Position numbers and translations under genes: made by a program. This document shows, piece by piece, positions 35,456 to 48,980 of a DNA stretch of 64,000 bases (the stretch's first letter is position 1; each line of letters begins with the position of its first letter). Origin of the DNA: Mesorhizobium sp. M1E.F.Ca.ET.045.02.1.1 (GTDB lineage: Bacteria > Pseudomonadota > Alphaproteobacteria > Rhizobiales > Rhizobiaceae); assembly GCF_003952485.1 (NCBI RefSeq), contig NZ_CP034447.1, positions 4,230,501-4,294,500 on the forward strand. The letters are read 5' to 3'. The notes beneath the pieces were generated by a model. That model saw nothing but the letters and a program-made list of their open reading frames with translations, was not told the DNA's origin and ran no database searches.

Positions 35456-36181
35456 ATGGCCCGTCGCGCGATGCAACTCACCCCCGGCACGGGCAAGCCC
35501 GAGCAGATCGCGACGGTTCTGGAGCATGAGATCCGCTCCGGCGTGCTCGGCTTCGGCGACCGCCTGCAGAGCGAGAACGAGCTGGTCCAGCGCTTCTCCG
35601 TCAGCCGCAATACCGTCCGCAAAGGGCTGGAGGAGCTTTCCAGTCGCGGGCTCATCACCACCAAGGTCGGTATCGGTTCCTTCGTCACCTTCGACGGCAT
35701 GCCCGTCGATGACGCGATCGGCTGGTCGCGCGCGCTTGCCAATGCAGGCGCCAATGCCGAGACCCGGACGTTGAGGCTCGAGATCATCGAGGACGCCGAG
35801 CTCGCGGCAAGACTCGGTGTTAGGAACCCGTCCTTCATCGCCGTCGACCGTGTGCGCAGCAATGCCGATGACGGCCACGCCATTTCGATCGAGCGCAGCC
35901 GCTTGCCCTTGTCGCCGGAACTGGAAGACGTGCCGCTGCGCGGCCTTCGAGAAGGCTCGCTGCACCAGACGCTGCGTGGGGCAGGGCTGGTGCCCGATCA
36001 TGGCGAGGAATGGGTCGACATCGAGATGCTGAGCGCCGCCGACGCAGCCATTCTCGATTGCGCTCCAGGCACGCCCTTCCTGCGTACGCGCCGCCTGACG
36101 CGTGCCGCCGACGGGCGCGCCATCGAATTCGTCACCAGCCTGCTCAACCCGGCGCATTTCGCATTGCATCTGGAGTTCTGA
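35456..36181 (+). CDS. GntR-family (HutC/UTRA type) transcriptional regulator
   Basis: A 241-residue regulator. The N-terminal winged helix reads FGDRLQSENELVQRFSVSRN then TVRKGLEELSSRGLITTKVG, the GntR consensus (about residues 36-75). The C-terminal part is a UTRA ligand-binding domain (GTPFLRTRRLTRAADGRAIE). It is the first gene of a twelve-gene co-directional run, 2 nt before the ADP-ribosylglycohydrolase gene, so it is very likely the local regulator, sensing the pathway substrate or an intermediate. A direct repeat sits just upstream. Confidence 0.88.
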   Translation: MARRAMQLTPGTGKPEQIATVLEHEIRSGVLGFGDRLQSENELVQRFSVSRNTVRKGLEELSSRGLITTKVGIGSFVTFDGMPVDDAIGWSRALANAGANAETRTLRLEIIEDAELAARLGVRNPSFIAVDRVRSNADDGHAISIERSRLPLSPELEDVPLRGLREGSLHQTLRGAGLVPDHGEEWVDIEMLSAADAAILDCAPGTPFLRTRRLTRAADGRAIEFVTSLLNPAHFALHLEF

Positions 36182-36183
36182 GC

Positions 36184-37218
36184 ATGGTGGACGCAGCCGG
36201 GATGAAGGACCGGGCAATGGGTGCGCTGATCGGAGGAGCGCTTGGCGATGCGCTGGGCATGCCGACGCAGCTTCTGTCCCCGGCCCGCATCGCCGAGTTC
36301 TACGGCCATGTCGAGGATTTCGTCGCGCCCGTCGCCGACCATCCGGTGTCAAAGGGGCTGCCGGCCGGCGCCATTACCGACGACACCGAACAGGCACTGC
36401 TGCTCGGCCGCATCCTGGTCAGCTCCGGCGATCGCTTCGACCACGCGCGCTGGGTCAACGCGCTGCTCGACTGGGAGCGCGACGTGAAGGCGCGCGGCAG
36501 CTACGACCTGCTTGGACCTTCGACCAAACGCGCCATCGACGCGATCAACGAGGGCGTGCCGGCGGAAGAGGCCGGACGCAGCGGCGACACCAACGGTGCG
36601 GCGATGCGTATCGCGCCGGTCGGCATCATGATGCCGCTAGAGCCGCTCGACGCGCTGGTCGCCAAGGTGGCGGAAACCTGCCGGGCGACGCACAACACCT
36701 CGATCGCCATTGCCTCCGCCGCTGCCGTTGCGGCGGCTGTGAGCAGTGGCGTCGCCGGCGGCGACTGGCGCGCGGCTTCCGAGCGCGCCGTCGCGGCGGC
36801 AGGGTTGGGAGCGACGCTCGGCCATTGGGTCACCGGCGGCGATATTGCGGCCCGCATTGCCTGGGCGCAGGACCTCGTGCGCGGCAAGGTGGAGCGGGAT
36901 GCAATCAAGCTGATTGTCGACCTGATCGGCACGGGCGTCGCCAGCCAGGAATCGGTGCCGGCGGCATTCGCCGTACTGGAGGTTGCTGAAGGCGATGCTT
37001 GGCGGTCCGCCGTCATCAGCGCCAATCTCGGCGGCGACACCGACACGATCGGCGCCATTGCCGCCGGCATGGCCGGCGCCTGTGCCGGCCTGTCTCGCCT
37101 GCCGCAGGATCGCGTCGCAAGGCTGAAAGGCATCGACCTCGCGGAGGTCCGCGCTCTGGCCAACGATCTTGTTTCGGCGAGGGTCGCGCGCAGTTCCGGC
37201 AAGGAGGCTGCGGCATGA
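36184..37218 (+). CDS. ADP-ribosylglycohydrolase family protein
   Basis: A 344-residue DraG/ARH-fold protein. The metal-binding elements are present: MGALIGGALGDALGMPTQ near the start, ITDDTEQALLLGRIL (Asp-Asp-Thr), SGDTNGAAMRIAPVG and ANLGGDTDTIGAIAAGMAGA near the end. The family hydrolyses N-glycosidic bonds to ribose with a di-magnesium centre. Here it is not beside any ADP-ribosyltransferase, but between a GntR regulator and a PfkB kinase, ahead of an importer. A role as a catabolic N-glycosidase, freeing a sugar for phosphorylation, is more likely than protein de-ADP-ribosylation. Substrate unknown. Confidence 0.87.
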   Translation: MVDAAGMKDRAMGALIGGALGDALGMPTQLLSPARIAEFYGHVEDFVAPVADHPVSKGLPAGAITDDTEQALLLGRILVSSGDRFDHARWVNALLDWERDVKARGSYDLLGPSTKRAIDAINEGVPAEEAGRSGDTNGAAMRIAPVGIMMPLEPLDALVAKVAETCRATHNTSIAIASAAAVAAAVSSGVAGGDWRAASERAVAAAGLGATLGHWVTGGDIAARIAWAQDLVRGKVERDAIKLIVDLIGTGVASQESVPAAFAVLEVAEGDAWRSAVISANLGGDTDTIGAIAAGMAGACAGLSRLPQDRVARLKGIDLAEVRALANDLVSARVARSSGKEAAA

Positions 37219-38189
37219 GCCGGCGTCTCGTCCATATCGGCAGCGCCGTGGTGGACTATGTCTACCGCATCGATACCTTGCCGGCGCCCGGCACCGAAAA
37301 GACCGCGTCGAGCTACGCGCGTGTCCCCGGCGGCGGCTTCAACATGATGGTGGCGGCGAGCCGCACCGGCATGAAGGTTGTATTCGGCGGCCAGTTGGGA
37401 ACGGGACCTGATGGCGATTTCCTGCGCGCCGCTTTCGCCGCCGAAGGCATCGAGACGCTGACGCCGCCATCGCCGCTCATGGACAGCGGCAATTGCGTCG
37501 CCATGATCAGCGGCGACGCCGAGCGAACCTTCGTCTCTTGGCCAGGCGCAGAGAGCGTGCTCACACCGGACATGATGACGCCCGTCCAAGTCATTCCGGG
37601 CGATTGGGTTTTCACCTCCGGCTACACGCTGAGCTATCCCGGCAGCCGCGAAGCCCTCGCCGACTGGATCGAGGCGCTGCCGGCGGAAATTCCATTCGTC
37701 TTCGATCCGACACCGGTGATCGCGGAGATTCCGCGGCCGATCCTGGACAGGGTGCTCGCGCGCACGACATGGCTGAGCTGCAACACCGATGAGGCCGCCG
37801 AAATCGCCGGCGCCGGTGATGCACAGACCGTCGCCGTCCGGTTGCTCTCCGAGCACTGCCCGAAGGCCGAGGGCGTCGTCATTCGGGCCGGTGCGCATGG
37901 CTGCCTGGTGCGGATGGCCGACGGTGGCACGCGGGCGATCCCCGGCTTCGCGGTCCACGCCGTGGATACCAATGGCGCCGGCGATACGCATATCGGCGCC
38001 TTCGTCAGCGCATTGTCGCGTGGCCTGTCGCCTTGCGAAGCGGCCCGCTACGCCAATGCGGCAGCGGCCCTTTCCGTCACCCGCCATGGCGGGTCTTCGG
38101 CGCCGACGGACACAGAGATCCAGGGATTCCTGAGCCATCGCGATCAAGCAACGATCGCGCATGACTGGGAGGAAGCGACTGCAACTTAA
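37215..38189 (+). CDS. PfkB-family carbohydrate kinase
   Basis: A 324-residue ribokinase-like kinase. It starts with the family strand RRLVHIGSAVVDYVYRIDTL, has the glycine-rich GGGFNMMVAASRTG (residues about 40-53), and ends with DTNGAGDTHIGAFVSAL, containing the catalytic Asp of the GAGD anion hole. It phosphorylates a sugar or nucleoside with ATP. The start overlaps the ADP-ribosylglycohydrolase stop (ATGA), so these two are coupled: one would free a sugar such as ribose, the other trap it as a phosphate. The exact sugar is unknown. Confidence 0.88.
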   Translation: MSRRLVHIGSAVVDYVYRIDTLPAPGTEKTASSYARVPGGGFNMMVAASRTGMKVVFGGQLGTGPDGDFLRAAFAAEGIETLTPPSPLMDSGNCVAMISGDAERTFVSWPGAESVLTPDMMTPVQVIPGDWVFTSGYTLSYPGSREALADWIEALPAEIPFVFDPTPVIAEIPRPILDRVLARTTWLSCNTDEAAEIAGAGDAQTVAVRLLSEHCPKAEGVVIRAGAHGCLVRMADGGTRAIPGFAVHAVDTNGAGDTHIGAFVSALSRGLSPCEAARYANAAAALSVTRHGGSSAPTDTEIQGFLSHRDQATIAHDWEEATAT

Positions 38190-38229
38190 CAAGCCCATCA
38201 ACCGGGCCAACAATGAGAGGAAAACAAAC

Positions 38230-39294
38230 ATGCGCATGCCCAGACTGACCGCTTTTCTGGCGGCGACCGCCGTCTTCGTTTCAGCACTCACGCTCTCCGC
38301 CCAGGCTGCCGAAGAAGTGCATGTGCTCAACTGGAAGGGCTACGGCGCCGACGAGCCGTGGGCTGTCGCCAATTTCGAGAAGGCGACCGGCTTCAAGGTG
38401 GTCAACGACTTCTTCAATTCCGAGCAGGAGATGCTGACGAAGCTCAGGACCAATCCGGGCCTCTATGACGTCGTCATGATCAACGCCGCCTTCAACGATC
38501 AGGCGATGGCCGGCAAGCTGATCCAGCCGATCGACACGTCGAAGCTCTCCAACTATGCCGACATCGCCAAGGACAAGGCCGGCTCGCCGATGCTCAACCA
38601 TGACGGCAAGGCCTATGGCGTGCCGTGGGTCTGGGGCCTGACCGCTTTGGCCATCAACGAAAAGTCCTTCGACAAGCCGCCGACGAGCATCGCCGAGATG
38701 TGGGATCCAGCGCATAAGGGCCGCGTCATCATTCGCGACGACGCCGTCGAAGCCGTGCAGTTCGGGGCTATCGCCAGCGGCCAGAACATCAACGACATCA
38801 AGGATATGGAAGCGGTCAAGACGAAGCTCACCTCGCTGATGCCGCAGATCAAGACCTTCTGGAGCTCGGAGAACGATTGGAATCAGATGGTCGCCTCCAA
38901 CCAAATCGACATCGGCACCTATTGGAGCGGCTCGGCCGACCGCGCCAAGACGCATTTCAAGCTGCCGGTCTCGCTGGTCATCCCGCAGGAAGGCGCCGTC
39001 GCCTGGCTCGACGCCTTCTCAATTCCCGCCGGTTCCAAGAACGTTGCCGGCGCCGAGGCCTTCATCAACTACATGATCGATCCGAAATTCTATGTCGAAT
39101 GGGTCACCGAGGTCGGCGCGCCGGTTTCGGCCAACACCAAGGCCGTCGAGGCTCTGCCCGAGGATGCCTTCAACCGCAAGGTCATGGGAAGCCCCGAGGT
39201 CGCCAAGCGCATCCAGTTCCAGGCGCCGATCACCGACGAACAGCGCGAGAAATATCTGGGGCTCTGGCAGGAGCTTAAGGTCAACGTGAAGTAG
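38230..39294 (+). CDS. ABC importer binding protein, polyamine (PotD) type
   Basis: A 354-residue extracytoplasmic binding protein with a signal peptide (TAFLAATAVFVSALTLSAQA, cleavage after about residue 27). The mature start EEVHVLNWKGYGADEPW resembles PotD/PotF (LNWxxY). SBP_bac_8 features follow, including LYDVVMINAAFNDQAM and DAFSIPAGSKNVAGAEAF. The family binds amines, but also opines, phosphonates and other small cations, so the ligand is open. It starts 40 nt after the kinase and heads the importer genes. Confidence 0.85.
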   Translation: MRMPRLTAFLAATAVFVSALTLSAQAAEEVHVLNWKGYGADEPWAVANFEKATGFKVVNDFFNSEQEMLTKLRTNPGLYDVVMINAAFNDQAMAGKLIQPIDTSKLSNYADIAKDKAGSPMLNHDGKAYGVPWVWGLTALAINEKSFDKPPTSIAEMWDPAHKGRVIIRDDAVEAVQFGAIASGQNINDIKDMEAVKTKLTSLMPQIKTFWSSENDWNQMVASNQIDIGTYWSGSADRAKTHFKLPVSLVIPQEGAVAWLDAFSIPAGSKNVAGAEAFINYMIDPKFYVEWVTEVGAPVSANTKAVEALPEDAFNRKVMGSPEVAKRIQFQAPITDEQREKYLGLWQELKVNVK

Positions 39295-39322
39295 TTGGCG
39301 TCTTTCGGGGAGGAGAGGCATC

Positions 39323-40191
39323 ATGGCTGACCAGCTCGCGACCGGTTCGCGCCGCGGACTGAAGCCCGCCCTGCCGCTTCTTCTTCCTGCCTATCTCTGG
39401 CTGACGGTGGCGCTCTTCCTGCCGCTGTCGGCCATGATGTTCTTCTCCTTCATGACCGACCTGCCGCTGGCCGGGAAGGAATGGGCGTTCACGCTCGGCA
39501 ACTACGCGACCTTCTTCTCGCAAAGCCTCTACTCGACACTGCTGTTCGCCTCCTTGCGGCTCGGGCTCGAGGTGACGCTGTGGTGCGTCGTCATCGGCTA
39601 TCCGGCGGCCTATGTGCTGGCCAAGGTGCTGAAAGGGCGCAGCCGCGAGGCGATCTTCCTGCTCGTCATCCTGCCCTTCTGGTCGAACGGCCTGGTGCGC
39701 ATTTTCTCCTGGGCGATGGTGCTGCGCGAGGGCGGCATCCTCGACACAGCGCTCAACGCCGTGCTGCCGTTCAAGATCAACATCGACCTGATGTATTCCT
39801 ATCCAGCCGTCATCATCGGCCTGGTGCACTCCTATGTGCCCTATATGGTGTTGACCTGCTACCTGACGCTGCAGGCGATCGACGACTCGCTGATCGAGGC
39901 CGGGCGTTCGCTCGGCGCCTCGCGGCGGCAGGTGCTGTGGCGGGTGATCATCCCGCTGTCGATGCCTGGTTTGATCGCAGGCGCGGCGCTGATCTTCGTG
40001 CCGGTCGTCGGCTCCTTCATGGAGCCGCGCATCCTCGGCGGGCGCACCGGCACCTTCTACGGGACAATCATCGAGGACCAGTTCGTCGCCGTCTTCAACT
40101 GGCCGCTCGGCGCTGCGCTGTCCTTCATCCTGCTCGCGGTGGTGCTGATCACCTGGCGCTGGCGGCGCCGATCTTGCGGAGAGCCGGCTGA
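39323..40191 (+). CDS. ABC importer permease, PotB type, with a one-base frame disruption
   Basis: About 289 residues once corrected. The frame is open with normal PotB-type sequence (the EAA loop region is LIEAGRSLGASRRQVLWRV) up to codon 40151. There it slips: as written, the frame runs on to 40666 through an arginine-rich tail unlike any permease. Adding one C to the CC at 40152-40153 restores ...LITLALAAPILRRAG and a TGA at 40189-40191 that overlaps the next ATG, exactly as at the neighbouring junction. So this is either an inactivating deletion or a sequencing error. The other importer genes are intact. Confidence 0.82.
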
Positions 40192-40973
40192 TGGCGACGA
40201 CGCGCATGCTCGAATGGCTCGGGCGCTTCTACATCGTGCTGCTGCTCGCTTTCCTCTACCTGCCGATCATCATCATGGCGCTGATGTCATTCAACGCCTC
40301 GCCCTTCTACCAATTGCCCCTCGAATGGACGACGGACTGGTATGCCTCGCTCCAGCAGAACGACCAGCTGATCGCGGCGACCTGGAACAGCATCGAGATC
40401 GCGGTCATCACCACCATCATCTCGACGGTGCTGGGGTCGATGGCTTCGCTGGCGCTTTATCGCTACGAGTTCCGCGGCAAGAAATTCCTGCAGGCGCTGC
40501 TCTTTCCGCCGATCGCCATTCCCTGGCTGATCACCGGCACGGCGATGCTGATCTTCTTCTTCGGCATCGGCCGCGGGCTCATCGCCATCCTACTCGGCCA
40601 TGTCGCGCTGGCGCTGCCTTATGTGATCGTCGTCGTGTCGGCCCGGCTGCAGACCTTCGCGCCTGAGCTCGAGGAAGCGGCGCGCTCGCTCGGCGCCAAC
40701 CAGTGGCAGGTGACGAACCGCGTCACGCTGCCCTGGATCATGCCCGGCGTCATCGCCGGCGGGCTGTTCGCTTTCGCCGTTTCGTTCGACCAGTTCGTGG
40801 TCTCGTATTTCCTGTCGACACCCGGCCAGACGACGCTGCCGGTCGAAATCTATGCCGCGATCCGCAAAGGCTTCACGCCCGAGATCAATGCGGTCTCGAC
40901 GATCATCATTGTCGTGTCGATGGCGCTGATGCTGCTTACGGCGCGCTTCTTCAAGTTCGGCGGAGAGAAGTAA
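40191..40973 (+). CDS. ABC importer permease, PotC type
   Basis: A 260-residue inner-membrane permease with about six membrane segments. The EAA loop is LEEAARSLGANQWQVTNRVT (about residues 160-179). It begins ATTRMLEWLGRFYIVLLLAF and shows the typical PotC layout. The start overlaps the corrected stop of the first permease (TGATG) and its stop overlaps the ATPase start (TAATG). Partner of the PotB-type permease in one importer. Confidence 0.9.
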   Translation: MATTRMLEWLGRFYIVLLLAFLYLPIIIMALMSFNASPFYQLPLEWTTDWYASLQQNDQLIAATWNSIEIAVITTIISTVLGSMASLALYRYEFRGKKFLQALLFPPIAIPWLITGTAMLIFFFGIGRGLIAILLGHVALALPYVIVVVSARLQTFAPELEEAARSLGANQWQVTNRVTLPWIMPGVIAGGLFAFAVSFDQFVVSYFLSTPGQTTLPVEIYAAIRKGFTPEINAVSTIIIVVSMALMLLTARFFKFGGEK

Positions 40974-42040
40974 TGGCAGGCGTCCAGGTCGCGAACGTCT
41001 CCCGCAGTTTTGGCGCGCACAAGGCGCTGGACAATGTCTCGATCGACTTTCCGGACGGCGGCTTCTATGCGTTGCTCGGGCCTTCAGGCAGCGGCAAGAC
41101 CACGCTGCTGCGCCAGATCGCCGGCTTCGACTTTCCGGATGCCGGGCGCATTGCCATCGGCGGCGAAAGCGTCGAGCGCGTGCCGGTCGAGAAGCGGCGC
41201 ATCGGCATGGTGTTCCAGAACTACGCGCTGTTTCCCAACATGAGCGTCGCCGACAATGTCGCCTTCGGCCTGTCGGTGCGCGGTGAGCCCAAGGCGACGA
41301 TCGCCACTGAGGTGCAGCGCGCGCTCGACCTCGTCAAGCTCGGCAAGCTCGGCGGCCGCCGTCCGCACCAGCTTTCCGGCGGCCAGCGCCAGCGCGTGGC
41401 GTTGGCGCGGGCCATCGTCACCAAGCCGCGCGTGCTGTTGCTGGACGAGCCGCTCGGCGCGCTCGACAAGGCGCTGCGCGTCGACATGCAGATCGAGTTG
41501 AAGCGCATCCAGCGCGAGATCGGCATCACCACCATCTTCGTCACCCACGACCAGGAGGAGGCGCTGACGATGAGCGACCGCATCGGCATCCTGCGCGACG
41601 GCAGGCTGGTGCAGGAGGGGCCGCCGGAGGAGATCTACGACAGGCCGCAAAGCGAGTTCGCCGCGACCTTCCTCGGCGATGCCAACATCTTTCGCGGCGC
41701 CGCGACCCGCACCGGGATCCGGCTGCCGGACGGCACAGCTATCGCTGCTGCCTCGGGTCCTTCGCTGGCGGCCGGAGCCAAGGCAAGTTGTGCCGTGCGG
41801 CCGGAGCGCATCCAGATTTCGACTGGCGCAGCGAGGCTCGATATTGGCAATGCCAACACGCTCAAGGGGCGGGTTTCCAAACGTATCTTCGCCGGCAACA
41901 ACAGCACCTATTTCGTCGACCGCGATGGCCAGACGCTCAAGGTGATCGTTCAGAACACCGGAGCCGAGCGCCTCGCCGAAGGCGAGCCCATGATGCTCAG
42001 CTGGTCGCCGGAAAGCACCGTGCTGATCGCAGCGAGCTGA
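40973..42040 (+). CDS. ABC importer ATP-binding protein, PotA type
   Basis: A 355-residue ATPase with Walker A GPSGSGKTTLLRQIAGF, Q-loop GMVFQNYALFPNM, signature QLSGGQRQRVALARAI, Walker B VLLLDEPLGALDK and H-loop FVTHDQEEAL. A C-terminal TOBE-type domain occupies the last 110 residues, typical of PotA/UgpC-class ATPases. It starts inside the TAA of the preceding permease. It energises the polyamine-type importer of this operon. Confidence 0.93.
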   Translation: MAGVQVANVSRSFGAHKALDNVSIDFPDGGFYALLGPSGSGKTTLLRQIAGFDFPDAGRIAIGGESVERVPVEKRRIGMVFQNYALFPNMSVADNVAFGLSVRGEPKATIATEVQRALDLVKLGKLGGRRPHQLSGGQRQRVALARAIVTKPRVLLLDEPLGALDKALRVDMQIELKRIQREIGITTIFVTHDQEEALTMSDRIGILRDGRLVQEGPPEEIYDRPQSEFAATFLGDANIFRGAATRTGIRLPDGTAIAAASGPSLAAGAKASCAVRPERIQISTGAARLDIGNANTLKGRVSKRIFAGNNSTYFVDRDGQTLKVIVQNTGAERLAEGEPMMLSWSPESTVLIAAS

Positions 42041-42126
42041 CGAGTGGTGCTGATGGGAAATGATGGCGCCGGCCTTGGCTGACCACCAGACCATGGCGTT
42101 ATATCCAGTTCTCGACGGAGGAATGG

Positions 42127-43215
42127 ATGGCGAGCATGGGTTTCGAGCCGGACGTGAAGGTCCGAGTCAAGGACTACCGGATCGGCTGCGTCGGCGCCGG
42201 CATGATCATGGCCGAATGCCATCTCGCCGCCTACGCGCAAGCCGGCTTCCCGGTGGTGGCGATCGCCTCGCGCACAAAGGCGAATGCCGAGAAGGTCGCC
42301 GCCCGCTGGGGAATTTCGACCGTCCACGACACGCCGGAGCAATTGATCGGGGACAGCCGTGTCGAGATCGTCGACCTTGCCTTCCCGCCCGATCAGCAGC
42401 CAGCGCTGATCCGTCGCGCGTTGAAGCAGCCGCACGTCAAGGCGATCCTGGCGCAAAAACCGCTGGCGCTCTCGGTCGCGGAAGCGGTGAAGCTGCGCGA
42501 CGAAGCGGCGGCCGCCGGCAAGATCCTCTCGGTCAACCAGAACATGCGCTACGACCAGTCGATGCGTGTGCTGAAGCAGATCATCGACAGCGGCGCGCTG
42601 GGCGAGATCGTCTTCGCTGAGATCGACATGCATGCGATCCCGCACTGGCAGACGTTCCTGGCCGGCTATGACCGGCTGACGCTCGCCAATATGAGCGTGC
42701 ACCACCTCGACGTGCTGCGCTTCCTGTTCGGCGATCCGGATGAGATCACCACGCTGACGCGCAAGGACCCACGCACCAAGTTCCAGCATTCCGACGGCAT
42801 CACGGTGTCGACGCTCCGCTTTCCCTCCGGCGTATTTGCCGTCTCGCTGGAGGATGTCTGGTCCGGCCCGCGCCAGGAAGGCTACCAGGACGATCAGCAC
42901 ATCGCCTGGCGCGTCGACGGCACCAAGGGCGTCGCCAAGGGCACGATCGGCTGGCCGAAGGGCGTCGCCTCGACACTAACCTATGCCTCGACCGAGACGA
43001 CAGGCGGGGTATGGGTCACGCCAAGCTGGGACACGATGTGGTTCCCGCATGCCTTCATCGGCGTGATGGAACAGCTCCAATACGCGCTGAAGGCCGGCAC
43101 GCCGCCGGCGCTGTCTGTCGCCGACAACGTCAAGACGATGGCCTTGGTCGAGGCCGGCTACAGGTCGATAGCCGAGGGTCGCACCGTCAAGCTGTCCGAA
43201 ATCCGCATCGACTGA
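42127..43215 (+). CDS. Gfo/Idh/MocA-family NAD(P)-dependent oxidoreductase
   Basis: A 362-residue dehydrogenase. The Rossmann motif is IGCVGAGMIMAECHLAAY (about residues 18-35); the family E-K-P motif reads AQKPLALSVAEA, with Gln replacing Glu but the catalytic Lys kept; and the barrel domain has MSVHHLDVLRFLFGDP. The family oxidises cyclitols, sugars or their amino derivatives; MocA itself belongs to rhizopine breakdown. GGAGGA precedes the ATG. It is 86 nt after the importer and 51 nt before a TIM-barrel isomerase, so it probably acts on the imported compound or its product. Confidence 0.87.
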   Translation: MASMGFEPDVKVRVKDYRIGCVGAGMIMAECHLAAYAQAGFPVVAIASRTKANAEKVAARWGISTVHDTPEQLIGDSRVEIVDLAFPPDQQPALIRRALKQPHVKAILAQKPLALSVAEAVKLRDEAAAAGKILSVNQNMRYDQSMRVLKQIIDSGALGEIVFAEIDMHAIPHWQTFLAGYDRLTLANMSVHHLDVLRFLFGDPDEITTLTRKDPRTKFQHSDGITVSTLRFPSGVFAVSLEDVWSGPRQEGYQDDQHIAWRVDGTKGVAKGTIGWPKGVASTLTYASTETTGGVWVTPSWDTMWFPHAFIGVMEQLQYALKAGTPPALSVADNVKTMALVEAGYRSIAEGRTVKLSEIRID

Positions 43216-43266
43216 GGCAGCCGAAAGACACGACGACAGAATCGCTTACCGGGAGGACTTCACCTC

Positions 43267-44181
43267 ATGATGCAGGCAGGTATCTTCACAGGCTATTTCC
43301 CCTATGAGCTTGAGGAGGTCGCGAAGCGCATCCGCGCGCTGGGTTTCAACACGGTGCAGCTCGACTTGCATTTCAAGGATATCGACCTCGCGGCCGGGCA
43401 GATCACCAGGGACAAGGCAAGGAAGGTGCGCGACACGTTCCGCGACCACAATCTGCCGGTCTGCTGCGTGTCCGGCTACACCAACATCATCCATCCGGAC
43501 AAAGCCGAGCGCGAAAGACGGCTCGCCTATCTGAAGGAGATCATCCGCAACGCGCGTGAATTCGGCAGCGCTTACGTGATCTCGGAGACCGGCACCTACA
43601 ACACCGAGTCCGACTGGGTGCATGATCCGAGGAACAAGACCGAGGAAGGGTTCGAGGAGTGCCGCAAGGTGATCTCCGATCTTGCCCAGACAGCCTATGA
43701 CCATGGCGCGGTGTTTTTGCTCGAAACCTATGTCAACAATGTCGTCGGTTCGGTCGAGGAGACGGTCAGAATGTTCGCGCAGGTCGACCATCCCGGCCTC
43801 GGGCTATTGATGGACCCGACCAACTATTTCGAGGCGCACAATATCGACCGCATGGACCAGGTGCTGAACCAGGTGTTCGACACGCTGACCGACAAGATCA
43901 AAATCGCGCATGCCAAGGATGTGAAGCGCTCAGGGACCGACAAGACCGAGAAGCATGCCGACATCGGTGACGCGGACGCGCATGAGGGGCTGACGTTCCG
44001 GGGCGTCGGCGAGATCGAATTGCCGGCGCCGGGCCTCGGTGCCCTCAACTATGATCTCTATCTCAAGCGGCTCAGCGAAAAGCACCCGAACATCCCGGTC
44101 ATCATCGAGCATCTCTCAGAGGACGACGTGCCGCGCGCCAAAAAATTCCTCGACGGGAAATTCCGCGCCAACGGACTTTGA
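43267..44181 (+). CDS. Sugar isomerase/epimerase family protein (xylose-isomerase-like TIM barrel)
   Basis: A 304-residue AP_endonuc_2-type barrel. It begins MMQAGIFTGYFPYELEEVAK and has the metal-site strands FLLETYVNNVVGS, GLLMDPTNYFEAH, KIAHAKDVKRS and VIIEHLSEDDVPRA, in which Glu, Asp, His and Glu ligands can be proposed. Related proteins (IolE, IolI, MocC) act in inositol and rhizopine breakdown. Two ATGs open the frame after GGGAGGACTT. It lies between the MocA-type dehydrogenase and the MocD-like oxygenase, an order that recalls moc genes. The substrate is not determined. Confidence 0.83.
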   Translation: MMQAGIFTGYFPYELEEVAKRIRALGFNTVQLDLHFKDIDLAAGQITRDKARKVRDTFRDHNLPVCCVSGYTNIIHPDKAERERRLAYLKEIIRNAREFGSAYVISETGTYNTESDWVHDPRNKTEEGFEECRKVISDLAQTAYDHGAVFLLETYVNNVVGSVEETVRMFAQVDHPGLGLLMDPTNYFEAHNIDRMDQVLNQVFDTLTDKIKIAHAKDVKRSGTDKTEKHADIGDADAHEGLTFRGVGEIELPAPGLGALNYDLYLKRLSEKHPNIPVIIEHLSEDDVPRAKKFLDGKFRANGL

Positions 44182-44198
44182 CGCCCGGGGAGGTGATG

Positions 44199-45296
44199 AT
44201 GACCAGGACCGCCAGCGCGAAGCGCGACTACAGCCTTGTCGGCGAAAGCACTCGGCACGCGATCGAGACCGGACTCGCCTCGGCTGAGTGGTACCACACG
44301 GACGTGCCGCGCAAGGTGATGAAGGAGTTGATGCAGCGCTCCGACGGGCCGGCGATCCGCGACACCATCATCTGGATTGCCGCGATCCTGGGTTCGGCTG
44401 GCGGCATCGTCTGGTTCTGGGGCACGTGGTGGGTCGTGCCGTTCCTGTTCGTCTATGGCGTGCTCTACGGCTCGTCGAGCGACTCGCGCTGGCACGAATG
44501 CGGCCACGGCACCGCTTTCCGCACGCGCTGGATGAACGACGTCGTCTACCACATCGCCTCGTTCATGCTGATGCGCAATCCGGTGCAGTGGCGCTGGAGC
44601 CATGCCCGCCACCACACCGACACCATCATCGTCGGCCGCGACGCCGAGATCGCCGTGATGCGCCCGCCGGACCTCATCAAGGCGGCGCTGGCCTTCACCG
44701 GCATCCTCGACTTCCGCTATTCGCTGCCGACGCTCGTGCGCCAGGCCTTCGGCAAATTGTCGGATGACGAGAAGAGCTACATCCCGGAGATGGAGCAGCA
44801 TAAGGCGGTGGTAGCGGCGCGCTGGCATATGGTCGTGTATGCCGCGACGATCGCTGCCGCGATCGCGCTTAAATCATGGATACCGCTGGTGCTGATCGGC
44901 CTGCCACGGCTCTACGGCACCTGGCACATGGTGATGACCGGGCTTTTGCAGCATATCGGGCTGGCCGACAACGTCGTCGACCACCGGCTCAACTCGCGCA
45001 CCGTCCACATGAACCCGGTCAGCCGGTTCATCTACTGGAACATGAACTACCATGTCGAGCACCACATGTTCCCGATGGTGCCCTATCACGCGCTGCCGAA
45101 GCTCCACGAACTGATCAAGCACGACCTGCCGAAACCGAACCCGTCGATGTGGCACGCCTATCGCGAGGTCTGGCCGGTGCTGCTCAGGCAGCTCAAATAT
45201 GAGGATTACTACCTCAAGCGCGAATTGCCGCCTACGGCCAGGCCCTATCGCGGCGAGTTCCACGAGGTCGATATGGCGACGGCCGCCGCCAAATAG
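44199..45296 (+). CDS. Membrane di-iron oxygenase, fatty-acid desaturase family (MocD-like)
   Basis: A 365-residue integral-membrane protein with the three histidine boxes of the desaturase/alkane-hydroxylase family: HECGH (residues 99-103), HARHH (135-139) and HVEHH (about 293). Membrane segments lie at about 57-90 and 205-245. Such enzymes hydroxylate or desaturate their substrate with O2 and electrons from a ferredoxin; the ferredoxin gene follows 28 nt later. In rhizobia the same pair, mocD and mocE, belongs to rhizopine (methylated inosamine) breakdown. Start: ATG 44199, 5 nt after GGGGAGG. A true lipid desaturase is less likely in this context. Confidence 0.85.
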   Translation: MTRTASAKRDYSLVGESTRHAIETGLASAEWYHTDVPRKVMKELMQRSDGPAIRDTIIWIAAILGSAGGIVWFWGTWWVVPFLFVYGVLYGSSSDSRWHECGHGTAFRTRWMNDVVYHIASFMLMRNPVQWRWSHARHHTDTIIVGRDAEIAVMRPPDLIKAALAFTGILDFRYSLPTLVRQAFGKLSDDEKSYIPEMEQHKAVVAARWHMVVYAATIAAAIALKSWIPLVLIGLPRLYGTWHMVMTGLLQHIGLADNVVDHRLNSRTVHMNPVSRFIYWNMNYHVEHHMFPMVPYHALPKLHELIKHDLPKPNPSMWHAYREVWPVLLRQLKYEDYYLKRELPPTARPYRGEFHEVDMATAAAK

Positions 45297-45324
45297 GTGG
45301 CGCGTTGCAGCTCGGAGAAAGACG

Positions 45325-45639
45325 ATGGCGGTGTGGGTTGAAGCATGCGCGGTGGACGACGTGGATGAGGAGGACGTGATCCGCTTCGACCATGGCGGCC
45401 GCACCTTCGCGATCTACCGCTCGCCTGACGACGAGTTCTTCGCCACCGACGGCTTCTGCACGCATGAAAAGGCGCATCTGGCCGACGGGCTGGTGATGGA
45501 CGACATTATCGAGTGCCCCAAGCACAATGGCCGCTTCAACTACAAGACCGGCCAGGCCAAGGGCGCGCCGGTCTGCGTCAACCTCAGGACCTATCCGGTG
45601 AAGATCGAGGCCGACAAGGTGATGATCAATATCGATTGA
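45325..45639 (+). CDS. Rieske [2Fe-2S] ferredoxin, MocE type
   Basis: A 104-residue soluble Rieske protein. The cluster ligands are C45-x-H47 (GFCTHEKAHL) and C64-x2-H67 (ECPKHNGRF), followed by NYKTGQAKGAPV, the usual ending of small Rieske ferredoxins. CGGAGAAAG precedes the ATG. It should pass electrons to the membrane oxygenase just upstream. No ferredoxin reductase (MocF equivalent) is in the operon, so a housekeeping reductase must serve. Confidence 0.93.
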   Translation: MAVWVEACAVDDVDEEDVIRFDHGGRTFAIYRSPDDEFFATDGFCTHEKAHLADGLVMDDIIECPKHNGRFNYKTGQAKGAPVCVNLRTYPVKIEADKVMINID

Positions 45640-45671
45640 AAGCCGCCAGACAGAAAAGACAGGATATACCG

Positions 45672-46475
45672 ATGAGCCGAAAGAGACCGACCGTCGCCGA
45701 CCTGCGCGCCATGAAGGGCAAGCGGCAATTGACCATGCTGCGCGTGCTGACGCTCGACGAGGCCGAAGCCGCCGAGCGCGCCGGCATCGACATCGTCTCG
45801 GTGCCGCCCGAACTGGTGCTCAATCCACAGTACCGCGACGCCGCCCCCAGCCTCTTCACGATGCCGGGCGACAATTTCTACGAGATCGGCACGGCGGACG
45901 ATTTCCTGCGCTGGGCCTTCCGCCTCTACAAGGCAGGCGCCGACGCGGTCTATTGCAGCGCCGGCTACGCCACGATCAAGCGCATGGCCGACGACGCAAT
46001 CCCCGTCATCGGACATGTCGGCCTCATTCCTTCCCGCGCAACCTGGACCGGCGGCTTCAGGGCCGTCGGCAAGACCGCCGATACCGCCATGCAGGTGTTC
46101 GATGCGGTGAAGCAACTCGAGGCCGCCGGCGCGATCGGCGCCGAGATCGAAGTCGTGCCGGTCGAGGTGGCGAAGACGATCTCCGAGCGCACCTCGCTGA
46201 TCATGCTGTCGATGGGCGCCGGTACTGGCTGTGACGCGCAGTACCTGTTTGCAGAAGACATTCTCGGCACCAATCGCGGTCACATGCCTCGCCACTCGAA
46301 GGTCTACCGCAACTTCGCCGCCGAATACGATCGGCTGCAGCAGGAACGCATCGCGGCGTTTTCCGAATATGTAGCCGACGTCAACAGCGGCGCCTATCCG
46401 GAAGACAGGCATATCGTGCATATGGATCCCGGCGAGCTCACCCTTTTCATGAAGAAGATGGACGGAAAGGCTTGA
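45672..46475 (+). CDS. PanB-like (ketopantoate hydroxymethyltransferase family) protein with altered active site
   Basis: A 267-residue PanB-family barrel. The C-terminal half matches PanB well: IPVIGHVGLIPSRATWTGGF, AAGAIGAEIEVVPVEVAKTI (with the catalytic-type Glu) and SMGAGTGCDAQYLFAEDILG. The N-terminal half lacks the PanB metal ligands: the GDS aspartate is replaced within SVPPELV, the second aspartate (ADMPF in PanB) by TMPGD, and the KLEGG lysine by YCSAG. It is therefore unlikely to be the pantothenate enzyme. As the last gene of the operon it may handle a one-carbon unit or a keto acid. Function unknown. Confidence 0.8.
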   Translation: MSRKRPTVADLRAMKGKRQLTMLRVLTLDEAEAAERAGIDIVSVPPELVLNPQYRDAAPSLFTMPGDNFYEIGTADDFLRWAFRLYKAGADAVYCSAGYATIKRMADDAIPVIGHVGLIPSRATWTGGFRAVGKTADTAMQVFDAVKQLEAAGAIGAEIEVVPVEVAKTISERTSLIMLSMGAGTGCDAQYLFAEDILGTNRGHMPRHSKVYRNFAAEYDRLQQERIAAFSEYVADVNSGAYPEDRHIVHMDPGELTLFMKKMDGKA

Positions 46476-46500: not shown

Positions 46501-47982
46501 CTAGGCTTGCCAACTCCCATCGGCGAGCGCGGCATGGAGCGCGTCGGCGTTAGGTCCGAGCGGCCGGTCTTCCTTGAGCGTCGGCACATGCGCGCGCACA
46601 GCCGCGTGGATCACGCCGGTGGCCGGCGCCAGTGTCAGCCCTTCGCGCAGGTCGACCGCCTGCGCCGCCGCCATCAGTTCGAGGGCGATCAGGCGCCGCC
46701 ACAGCGCGATCATCTCGGCGCATTTGGCGACGGCAAGCGGCGTTTGGGTGGCGTGGTCCTCCACGCCCTCGGATACGGGCAGGAAGTCGAGCATCACAGG
46801 ATTGGCCTTGTGGCGGATGCCGGCCAGGATCGCCGTCACCGTCTTCTGCAGCGGCACGAAGCCGGCGGAGGCGCCGCCGACCGGCGACAGATATTTCGGC
46901 AGGCCGTGGCGGGTCGAGCCGGTGAGCTGGATAAAGCGGGCAGCGGATGCCGCCGCGCATTGGGCGATCGCGAGGCCGAGCGTCTCGAATGCCAGCGCCA
47001 GCGATGCGGTGTGGAAATTGCCGGTCGACAAAACCTGAGCGTCATCAACGAGCACCAGCGGGTTGTCGGCGGCGGCATTGAGCTCGATCTCGACGGCGAG
47101 CCGCGCATGGTCGATCGCCTGGATCAGCGCGCCATGGATCGAGGGCATGCAGCGGATCGACAGCGGATCCTGAATGGTGGTCGGCACGGGTGCGTCCTCG
47201 CGGGCGAGCAGCTCGCGCAGCGCCTTTGCCGCGACCTGCTGGCAGGCGCCCGGCCGTGCCTGGTGCAGACGAGGATCGAGGATGGTGCGGTTGGCGCCCA
47301 ACGCCTCCATAGTCAGCGCGCCGGCCTGCTGCTGCTGTTCGAGCGCCGACAAAGCGTCGACGAGAGCCAGAGCGCCGACGCCGGTGGAGACCGCGGAAGC
47401 GTTGATCAGCGAGAGGCCGTCCTTCGGCGCCAGGCTGACCGGGACAAGGCGCGCCATCATCAATGCCTTGGCTGACGGCATGCGCCGGCTTTGGTAGTCG
47501 GCATCGCCTTCTCCGATCAGCGTATGGGCAATCGCCGTCATCAGCACCAGGTCGCCGGCGCCGATCGAGCCGAGCGAGGGCATCACCGGATGGACGCCTG
47601 CGTTGAGCAGGTCGACAAGCGCGGTGAAGACAGGCGGCGACAGGCCGGAGCCGCCGGCCGATAGCATGGCGACGCGGGCGAACATTGCCGCGCGCACCAG
47701 TTGGGCCGGCAATGCGGTCCCCACCGCTGCGGCGCGGCCGTCGAGAAGCTGGCGCTGGAACGCGCCGGCATCACCTTCGACTGTCGCGCCGAGATTGGCC
47801 CCCAAGCCGGTGTTCAGCCCGTAGATCTGCTGGCCGCCGGCGGCGGCCTCATCGAGCACCTTGCGCGCCTTGCCCAGTCTTTCGATGACCGCAGGCGTGA
47901 CCTCGACCTTTCCTGTATTGCGCGCAACGGCGGCCACATCCTCGATGCTGACGCCGGCGCCGGTGAGAACGAGCGGGGTCAT
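46501..47982 (-). CDS. Histidine/aromatic ammonia-lyase family protein lacking the MIO serine
   Basis: A 493-residue HAL-fold protein. IYGLNTGLGANLG (catalytic Tyr54), LSLINASAVSTGVGALALV, NPLVLVDDAQVLSTGNFH and EGVEDHATQTPLAVAKC all match the lyase family. The MIO cofactor normally forms from Ala-Ser-Gly in GS-x-GASGDL, but here the stretch reads GSIGAGDL (Ala142-Gly143), so the serine that becomes dehydroalanine is absent. The surrounding sequence is otherwise well conserved, with no frameshift. It may therefore not be a classical ammonia-lyase. It overlaps the upstream cyclodeaminase-like gene by 4 nt, forming a two-gene operon. Confidence 0.82.
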   Translation of the reverse strand: MTPLVLTGAGVSIEDVAAVARNTGKVEVTPAVIERLGKARKVLDEAAAGGQQIYGLNTGLGANLGATVEGDAGAFQRQLLDGRAAAVGTALPAQLVRAAMFARVAMLSAGGSGLSPPVFTALVDLLNAGVHPVMPSLGSIGAGDLVLMTAIAHTLIGEGDADYQSRRMPSAKALMMARLVPVSLAPKDGLSLINASAVSTGVGALALVDALSALEQQQQAGALTMEALGANRTILDPRLHQARPGACQQVAAKALRELLAREDAPVPTTIQDPLSIRCMPSIHGALIQAIDHARLAVEIELNAAADNPLVLVDDAQVLSTGNFHTASLALAFETLGLAIAQCAAASAARFIQLTGSTRHGLPKYLSPVGGASAGFVPLQKTVTAILAGIRHKANPVMLDFLPVSEGVEDHATQTPLAVAKCAEMIALWRRLIALELMAAAQAVDLREGLTLAPATGVIHAAVRAHVPTLKEDRPLGPNADALHAALADGSWQA

Positions 47983-48980
47983 GCGAAGCGCAGCCTCTGG
48001 CCGATGCCTTGTTCCGCGGCCTTGGACAGCATCGCCTTGCCGAGCGCGATATCGGAAAGCGAGAGGCCGCGATGCCAGAACAGGATCGTCTCGCCGTCGC
48101 TTTGGCGTCCGGCTTTCAGGCCGGCGGCGATCTGGCCGAGCTCGGCATGCAGCGTCGCCTCGCTCAGCCGCCCCGTCTCGACATGAGCGCGCAGCGAGCC
48201 GAACTTACCACCTTTGCACTGACCCCAGTCGTCGACGACGATCTTTTGCATGATCTCGGTGAGCGACAGCTCCACGGCACTCATAGTGCCGTAGGGCACG
48301 ACCAGCGCGCCGCGCTTGATCCATTCGGTCTTGAGCAATGGTTGCGGTTCCGGCAGCCGCGAGGCCTCGACGACGATGTCCGCGCCTTCGACGCAGCTCT
48401 TCCAGTCGGCCACGGCCATGACCGGCTTGCCGAGGTCGGCGGCCAGTTTCGCGGCGAAAGCGTCTCGGCTTTCCGGCCGGCGCGAATGGACGCGGATCTC
48501 GTCGAAGTCGAAGAGGTGGTCGAGCAGGCGCACGTTCCAGTAGGCGGTGCCGCGCGCGCCGATATGGCCGAGCACCTTTGATGACTTCTTCGCCAGGTGC
48601 CTGGCGCCGATGGCGGTGACGGCGCCGGTGCGCATGTCGGTGATGACGGTGGCGTCGAGGATGGCGCGCGGCGTGCCGGTGCGCGGATCGAAGAGGTTGA
48701 GGATGCCGAATTCGGACGGCAGGCCGTGCAGATAGTTGTCGACATAGTCACCGACGATCTTCACGCCGGCCGCGTCGAGCGGTGCCACATAGCCGCGAAG
48801 CACGTTGAAGTGGCCGTGGAAGGACGGATCCGGCTCGAGATGGACGCGCGGCTCGATCACCGTCTGGCCGTTGCCCTGGGCGACGAGCCCGGCTTCGACG
48901 GCGCCGATGATCTCGGCATCGCTCATGGCAAGAGCTTCGATGTCGAGAGCGTTGAGATAGTCGATATAGATGGGCTTCAT
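47979..48980 (-). CDS. Ornithine cyclodeaminase / mu-crystallin family protein
   Basis: A 333-residue NAD(P)-binding protein of the OCD/mu-crystallin family. Recognisable parts are GVKIVGDYVDNYLHGLPSEF, LDATVITDMRTGAVTAIGAR (the conserved substrate-side arginine region) and VLGHIGARGTAYWNVRLLDH, which replaces the usual GxGxQA nucleotide motif with GHIGARG. The family covers ornithine cyclodeaminase, alanine dehydrogenase and ketimine reductases, so the reaction is open. It is coupled to the MIO-less lyase homologue, implying joint action on an amino or imino acid. Confidence 0.83.
   Translation of the reverse strand: MKPIYIDYLNALDIEALAMSDAEIIGAVEAGLVAQGNGQTVIEPRVHLEPDPSFHGHFNVLRGYVAPLDAAGVKIVGDYVDNYLHGLPSEFGILNLFDPRTGTPRAILDATVITDMRTGAVTAIGARHLAKKSSKVLGHIGARGTAYWNVRLLDHLFDFDEIRVHSRRPESRDAFAAKLAADLGKPVMAVADWKSCVEGADIVVEASRLPEPQPLLKTEWIKRGALVVPYGTMSAVELSLTEIMQKIVVDDWGQCKGGKFGSLRAHVETGRLSEATLHAELGQIAAGLKAGRQSDGETILFWHRGLSLSDIALGKAMLSKAAEQGIGQRLRFA

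Follow-up and report, generated by a model that had tools for sequence, protein, structure and literature searches.

Gene content of the row

Twelve consecutive genes, each encoded on the plus strand, form a row at positions 35456-46475 of a 64,000-nucleotide stretch (hereafter the window) from the 7.35-Mb single-contig genome of Mesorhizobium sp. M1E.F.Ca.ET.045.02.1.1 (NZ_CP034447.1, positions 4,230,501 to 4,294,500). A preliminary description of this DNA had presented the row as one operon of tightly spaced genes serving one pathway. The coordinates were borne out, the spacings between consecutive genes being -4, -4, 40, 28, -1, -1, 86, 51, 14, 28 and 32 nt (computed with the end of the first permease gene set at 40191, as relatives have it), and the gene families assigned were recovered in Pfam and NCBIfam profile matches. 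Read directly from the sequence and its relatives, the twelve genes look like two neighbouring modules resembling two transcription units, not one pathway: a front module (35456-42040) and a core module (42127-46475), separated by the largest gap of 86 nt.

The front module begins with a GntR/UTRA regulator (35456..36181; Pfam GntR and UTRA), an ADP-ribosylglycohydrolase-family (ARGH) N-glycoside hydrolase resembling YegU (36178..37218; PF03747, 208 bits), in which both metal motifs, TDDTE and GGDTD, were intact, and a PfkB/ribokinase-family sugar kinase resembling YegV (37215..38189; PF00294, 149 bits), with an intact GAGD motif and ribokinase as its top NCBIfam match (129 bits, cut-off 299.65). 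The importer genes follow: a PotD-like periplasmic binding protein (38230..39294; SBP_bac_8), ABC permeases 1 (39323..40191) and 2 (40191..40973), both BPD_transp_1, and a PotA-like ABC ATPase (40973..42040; ABC_tran and TOBE_2). Permease 1 is one base short near 40151 by comparison with 13/13 relatives, so that its frame as found continues to 40666 inside permease 2, with the last residues changed; this frameshift may reflect either a true mutation or an error in the sequence.

The core module comprises a MocA-like Gfo/Idh dehydrogenase (42127..43215; GFO_IDH_MocA), a xylose-isomerase-like TIM-barrel protein of the MocC/IolE/IolI class (43267..44181; PF01261, AP_endonuc_2), for which no PDB sequence match was obtained at E<=0.01, a MocD-like membrane di-iron oxygenase with its three His boxes (44196..45296; PF00487, FA_desaturase), a MocE-family Rieske ferredoxin with C-x-H and C-x-x-H (45325..45639; TIGR02377, MocE_fam_FeS, 184.5 bits, cut-off 136.15) and a PanB-like protein (45672..46475; Pantoate_transf PF02548, 141 bits, over residues 76-244 only).

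Distribution of the two halves and the gap between them

The PanB-like genes nearest to that of the window came from Mesorhizobium. Core loci of this genus were centred on the PanB-like gene, and the best 80 of 196 found were compared. The gene order of the window, with the Pot ATPase directly 5' of mocA (the fused layout), recurred in 12 of them, indicating that the row is not due to chance. CUT2 sugar-importer genes and DUF4432 were inserted between the TIM-barrel gene and mocD in 43 loci; DUF4432 was present and CUT2 not detected in 15, while the remainder had other layouts (n = 8) or were ended by the contig (n = 2). When the joined core proteins were placed in a tree, all 13 fused tips fell together with the 8 'other' ones in one clade of 21 (support 1.0), nested among loci of the longer layout, so that the shortened layout is derived. 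As judged from these sequences, the juxtaposition of the two modules in the fused row is a derived state.

Among 109 sampled Mesorhizobium genomes, 88 had an ARGH match and 99 a PanB-like match, 92 of the latter with at least 81% identity. Both genes lay on the same contig and strand, no more than 40 kb apart, in 70 of the 88 ARGH-bearing genomes, at distances of 9.2-9.6 kb, as in the window (n = 15), 10.2 kb (n = 1), 11.1-11.5 kb (n = 6) or 15-33 kb (n = 48), and a further pair was 61 kb apart. The remaining 17 ARGH genomes either had no close PanB-like gene (n = 6) or carried it on another contig (n = 11), some near contig ends; a close PanB-like gene with no ARGH match was found in 10 sampled genomes. 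For the six genomes at 11.1-11.5 kb, an aconitase X gene between the halves is the more likely explanation. Such a gene was seen between the halves in five loci (L030, L034, L063, L139 and L141; confirmed as PF04412 in L141, by eye in the others). In three genomes (G292, G357 and G394), mocA was preceded by a CUT1 importer and a divergent LacI gene, with four to five genes seen, and unrelated genes also intervened over about 6.6 kb in G357 and 12 kb in G394.

Each half was also found without the other. The front module occurred alone, within the 17-20 kb read, at four Mesorhizobium loci (L133, L134, L136 and L146, from G389, G390, G324 and G304), on plasmids of Rhizobium sp. TH2, Mesorhizobium sp. 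B1-1-8 and Burkholderia stagnalis (L151, L153 and L155) and, with the regulator missing, in Paracoccus albus (L152); at L145 (G360), fragments of mocA and mocD remain as a scar behind it. The core occurred without the front module at L143 and L144 (G325 and G329). Outside Mesorhizobium, five genomes had the core in the order mocA-TIM-CUT2-DUF4432-mocD-(mocE)-panB (L156-L160), with no ARGH match in two of them (G480 and G635) and a match on a different contig in three (G512, G540 and G588). In the order-wide sample (n = 249 genomes), ARGH was detected in 12, six of them outside Mesorhizobium; three of these six had no PanB-like match and three had the core on a different contig, so that none linked the halves. 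The preliminary description had stated that its proposal would be refuted if the halves were not conserved together in other genomes, and these counts point against the proposal.

A pair of minus-strand genes at 46501-48980, histidine/aromatic ammonia-lyase-like and ornithine-cyclodeaminase-like as named by eye, was present in 69 of the 80 loci and still adjoined the front module at L133 and L134, where the core is missing.

The 86-nt gap holds an operator-like direct repeat, TGATGGGAAATGATGG (42051..42066, plus strand), and a promoter-like CTTGGC-N19-TTATAT (42074..42104, plus strand). The repeat preceded mocA in every one of the 22 fused or rearranged loci, independently of the upstream gene (exact in 18, with one mismatch in the other four), and the promoter-like pattern fitted 20 of these 22; in the window it occurs once, both strands counted. 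CTTGAC/CTATAT is a rhizobial promoter consensus. At three loci (L060, L071 and L078) the core lies 3' of unrelated genes and the block is kept. A similar repeat also stands 5' of the longer core operons and of several operons with mocD: of 31 regions tested, 16 had it with at most two mismatches, where shuffled sequences would give 0.13 (two of the positives, L150 and L186, are identical in sequence), and 15 lacked it. A genome-wide search for the operator returned three exact and three one-mismatch sites, with none for the controls. These observations suggest a separate promoter for the core at about 42051-42104, although a general sigma-70 scan missed the site. One exact copy of the operator, at 979769 of the same genome, lies 5' of a DeoR-type regulator and a sugar ABC importer, possibly by coincidence. 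It is not the same motif as the moc-box AAAGYGGYTCT described in the literature (PMC10107442).

These results bear on the claim that the row is a single operon whose products import an N-linked methylated sugar or cyclitol through the Pot-type importer, demethylate it by MocDE, cleave it by the glycohydrolase and phosphorylate the product. Such a pathway would fit the co-directional genes, their tight spacing and the 70/88 neighbourhood, and the core of the fused clade, being without flanking CUT1, CUT2 and DUF4432, could rely on the Pot importer. We nevertheless consider it improbable, given the many genomes with one half only, the six ARGH genomes outside the genus in which the halves are unlinked and the conserved internal promoter-like block, kept even after unrelated genes; neither the one-operon nor the one-pathway claim found support. 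An internal promoter and terminator separating the halves had also been named as a check, and it was answered only in part, because no terminator was found in the gap by the scan used. Besides the missed sigma-70 prediction, two points weigh against separate modules: read-through from the front operon is possible in the absence of that terminator, and the proximity of the halves in the 70 genomes could reflect a functional link or plain synteny. If the modules are separate, tight co-directional spacing can mask two independently conserved units whose fusion is a derived state.

A YegTUVW-like front module

The preliminary description had found no described pathway with this combination of genes, which is fair for the whole row; the front quartet, however, parallels E. 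coli yegTUVW. As in yegTUV-yegW, an ARGH protein, a PfkB kinase, a GntR/UTRA regulator and a dedicated importer form one unit, with sequence identities of 33% over 331 aa (ARGH-YegU) and 31% over 306 aa (kinase-YegV); for the regulator, 27% over 216 aa with YegW/GgaR amounts to family-level likeness only. The E. coli unit has the nucleoside:H+ symporter YegT and a convergent regulator, whereas in the window the regulator stands first in the row, and no YegT-type symporter was present in the front module, a Pot-type ABC importer being in its place. GgaR represses yegTUV and senses ADP-glucose, the enzymes being without proven function (PMC10819704).

The ARGH protein scored 92.3 bits against the DraG equivalog TIGR02662, under its cut-off of 337.05. 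The ATPase passed the potA subfamily cut-off (TIGR01187, 362.1 bits against 355.6), although the binding protein failed the PotD equivalog (NF007048, 164 bits against 582), a score that gives no support to polyamine (PotABCD) import. In other carriers of the ARGH module, the importer is a nucleoside symporter (YegT, PF03825) or a cytosine/purine permease (PF02133, in Caballeronia, L154); these importers, together with the likeness to YegTUVW, led us to infer a nucleoside-like N-riboside as the front substrate. The Pot-type importer would take up this compound, the ARGH-fold enzyme, judging from its family and intact metal motifs, would split its N-glycosidic bond, and the PfkB kinase would phosphorylate the released pentose, with the GntR protein acting as a repressor by analogy with GgaR. 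A point against this assignment is the Pot-type binding protein itself, which suggests a cationic ligand over a plain nucleoside; a positively charged ligand would suit PotD-type binding proteins, a weak guide.

ARGH homologues were also present in two short phage records of human faecal origin (MT837411.1 and MT836515.1), with 39% and 32% identity.

The PanB-like protein and its oxygenase and folate neighbours

The PanB-like protein shares PF02548 with PanB and differs from it by its catabolic neighbourhood and its active site. It scored 103 bits against the ketopantoate hydroxymethyltransferase (KPHMT) equivalog TIGR00222, under the cut-off of 207.55, and an alignment with three PanB genes of the same genome and 14 PanB-like relatives placed it without the KPHMT aspartates of GDS and V-D-(L/M)-P and without the VKLEGG lysine, which we take to be, respectively, the metal site and an active-site residue of true PanB. 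The score and the loss of the Asp pair and Lys rule out a genuine PanB. The Glu of the E-x-V-P region and H-x-G-L-x-P are kept, and the branch has invariant TW and PRH motifs of its own. Three full-scoring PanB genes (at 96013, 3908569 and 5687035) are present in this genome besides two PanB-like genes.

PanB-like genes were detected in 15 of 289 genomes of a class-wide sample (E<=1e-50) and in 25 of the 249 order genomes, and they often lie beside MocD/MocE genes. In the 80 Mesorhizobium loci, mocD lay within 3 kb 5' of the PanB-like gene in all cases and mocE in 75; in the order sample, mocD was found within 5 kb on the same strand at 29 of 40 PanB-like places, and a PanB-like gene at 29 of 52 mocD places. 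Among those read of the 11 places without a same-strand mocD, G480 has mocE instead (L173), in G598 both mocD and mocE lie 3.6 kb off on the other strand (L169), the gene of G070 adjoins a contig edge, and neither gene was seen for G432 (L174) or for one copy of G308 (L203). The 1.6-Mb genome G161, from the same class, has four PanB-like genes (L108-L110), all with an oxygenase gene nearby: mocE/mocD accompany one, PhyH-like genes (by eye) adjoin two, and a PhyH gene lies about 2.5 kb from the fourth.

Folate genes also adjoin the set. purU lay directly 3' of the PanB-like gene in 14 of the 80 core loci, and at L029 it overlaps the PanB-like stop by 4 nt (PurU equivalog 323.7 bits, cut-off 285.95). 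A Mesorhizobium huakuii plasmid, pMHb, has the row mocD-mocE-ferredoxin reductase-PanB-like-purU-folD (L186 is identical to it in sequence). At L187 and L188 a mocD fragment accompanies the PanB-like gene and purU, and at L193 and L194, within an inositol-type cluster, a single gene stands between the PanB-like gene and the folD and purU that come after it; purU and/or folD are thus placed near the PanB-like gene in four distinct arrangements. In the pAO1 operon purU-mabO-folD, these genes serve a demethylation yielding methylene-tetrahydrofolate (PMC3891541), and the set discussed here would resemble it in having purU/folD, found in relatives of the window's set only, beside a demethylation that passes a one-carbon (C1) unit to tetrahydrofolate (THF). 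A further difference is that MABO of pAO1 is an oxidase acting alone (PMC3891541), whereas here a MocDE-type oxygenase is accompanied by the PanB-like protein. These neighbours and the pAO1 precedent are the grounds for proposing that the PanB-like protein loads a C1 unit onto THF. The MocD-MocE-PanB-like(-PurU/FolD) set had no description among the literature matches listed, which comprised titles and abstract openings and left subscription journals mostly outside.

The interpretation of MocD and MocE in the preliminary description, as an oxidative demethylation or hydroxylation system, remains the best reading of that pair. In the proposed sequence, the MocA dehydrogenase and the TIM-barrel protein would act on the sugar or cyclitol ring, MocD and MocE would hydroxylate an O-methyl, possibly an N-methyl, group, and the PanB-like protein would hand the resulting hydroxymethyl or formaldehyde unit to THF, where it would be turned over by FolD and PurU. 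We tentatively propose that the PanB-like protein represents a catabolic branch of the KPHMT family that has lost the ketoacid/metal site and delivers directly to THF the hydroxymethyl or formaldehyde unit that MocDE, or the oxygenase PhyH in some relatives with small genomes, produces; O- or N-demethylation of plant cyclitols, sugars and betaines would then yield methylene-THF, not free formaldehyde. What the DNA itself displays is the arrangement in two modules, the conserved promoter-like block, the altered PanB active site and the gene neighbourhoods MocD/MocE/PanB and PanB/PurU/FolD; the substrates and reactions, like the activity of the promoter before mocA, are what we infer from these. 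For the reading of the whole row as two neighbouring, separately promoted catabolic modules with these substrates and reactions, we consider the chances about even.

Several results weigh against this account of the core. No purU was seen in 66 of the 80 core loci and neither purU nor folD stands beside the PanB-like gene of the window, while L187 and L188 retain mocD as a fragment only. An adjacent mocF reductase that would serve as the electron donor is lacking in the window core. For one more distant PanB-like subfamily (L090-L096), mocD and mocE were absent from the 3-4 kb read around the gene, and no oxygenase was recognised in the four of these loci that were read more widely (L111-L114). 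Conversely, the PanB-like gene is missing in the fused locus L135 and apparently, by positions, in G386, and MocD occurs without it at 23 of the 52 order-wide places, indicating that MocD does not need it. An AlphaFold model of the PanB-like protein, built with 14 close sequences, was unusable (predicted confidence, pLDDT, 41).

The scarcity of purU would also be expected if the PanB-like protein acted free of folate, capturing or detoxifying formaldehyde or speeding the breakdown of a stable hemiacetal or hemiaminal, as MgdL does after MgdH. In methylguanidine demethylation by MgdH/MgdL, a methyl-hydroxylating oxygenase is likewise paired with a second enzyme that frees the C1 unit; MgdH is a 2-oxoglutarate dioxygenase and MgdL a lyase annotated as a hypothetical protein, with folate genes not mentioned in the available portion of that source (PMC12508155). 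Despite this oxygenase-plus-lyase precedent, we regard the folate-free role as rather unlikely, since purU and/or folD recur near the PanB-like gene in the four arrangements described. We hold a similarly guarded view of a C-C lyase (retro-aldolase) acting on a ring-opened or hydroxymethyl sugar acid formed by MocA, the TIM-barrel protein and MocDE, with purU/folD reflecting the C1 unit released there. KPHMT chemistry is a reversible hydroxymethyl transfer, the KPHMT Glu and the H-x-G-L-x-P motif are kept, and a PanB-like gene of G161 also lies beside sugar-acid dehydratase-like and GH4-like genes (by eye), all of which would suit a lyase; the PanB-like gene, however, tracks the oxygenase and not one sugar pathway, occurring in inositol-, betaine- and sugar-type loci, and cyclitols have, to our knowledge, no hydroxymethyl group to lose. 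Finally, MocDE could be a ring hydroxylase or desaturase rather than a demethylase, with the PanB-like gene as a passenger. In NCBIfam, MocD comes nearest to the models of a fatty-acid desaturase and of a carotene hydroxylase, with scores far under either cut-off, and the 23 MocD places without a PanB-like gene agree with this option; the rhizopine association of mocDEF and the C1-folate genes beside the set oppose it, and we judge it to be unlikely.

The core shares with the rhizopine loci of Sinorhizobium and Rhizobium (mocA, mocC and mocDEF) the dehydrogenase, the TIM barrel, the MocD oxygenase and a MocE ferredoxin (TIGR02377), and its relatives occur in inositol-type contexts: IolC/J, IolD and IolB, over their cut-offs, share a cluster with mocE and the PanB-like gene at L104, and iolD and iolB stand beside mocDEF at L179. 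mocDEF is part of rhizopine catabolism (PMC10107442). The window differs from these loci in having neither a MocR-type regulator nor an adjacent mocF, and in having the PanB-like gene instead; its GntR/UTRA protein scored 24 bits against the MocR model NF052281 (cut-off 650). The binding protein of the window is Pot-type, whereas rhizopine MocB is presumably a Peripla_BP-type protein. A rhizopine locus was ruled out on account of the missing MocR-type regulator and the Pot-type binding protein.

A second set in the same genome (1,670,000-1,689,900; L101) has a LacI-type gene divergent from mocD-mocE-mocF-PanB-like, together with a CUT2 importer and an IolG-like dehydrogenase, and a similar operator-like repeat lies 5' of its mocD.

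The part of the row worth following is the association of MocD, MocE and the PanB-like protein with folate. If the proposal is true, legume symbionts would gain a formaldehyde-free use of methylated cyclitols, and the fate of the carbon taken off by MocDE-type oxygenases would become directly testable. The PanB-like branch is labelled 3-methyl-2-oxobutanoate hydroxymethyltransferase in every named entry among the matches listed, a name that the sequence and neighbourhood appear to contradict. Rhizobial plasmids commonly carry the branch: 275 plasmid records matched it, 229 of them from Rhizobium or Sinorhizobium, and among 40 listed plasmid matches the eight that carry an annotation are all named as that vitamin B5 enzyme.

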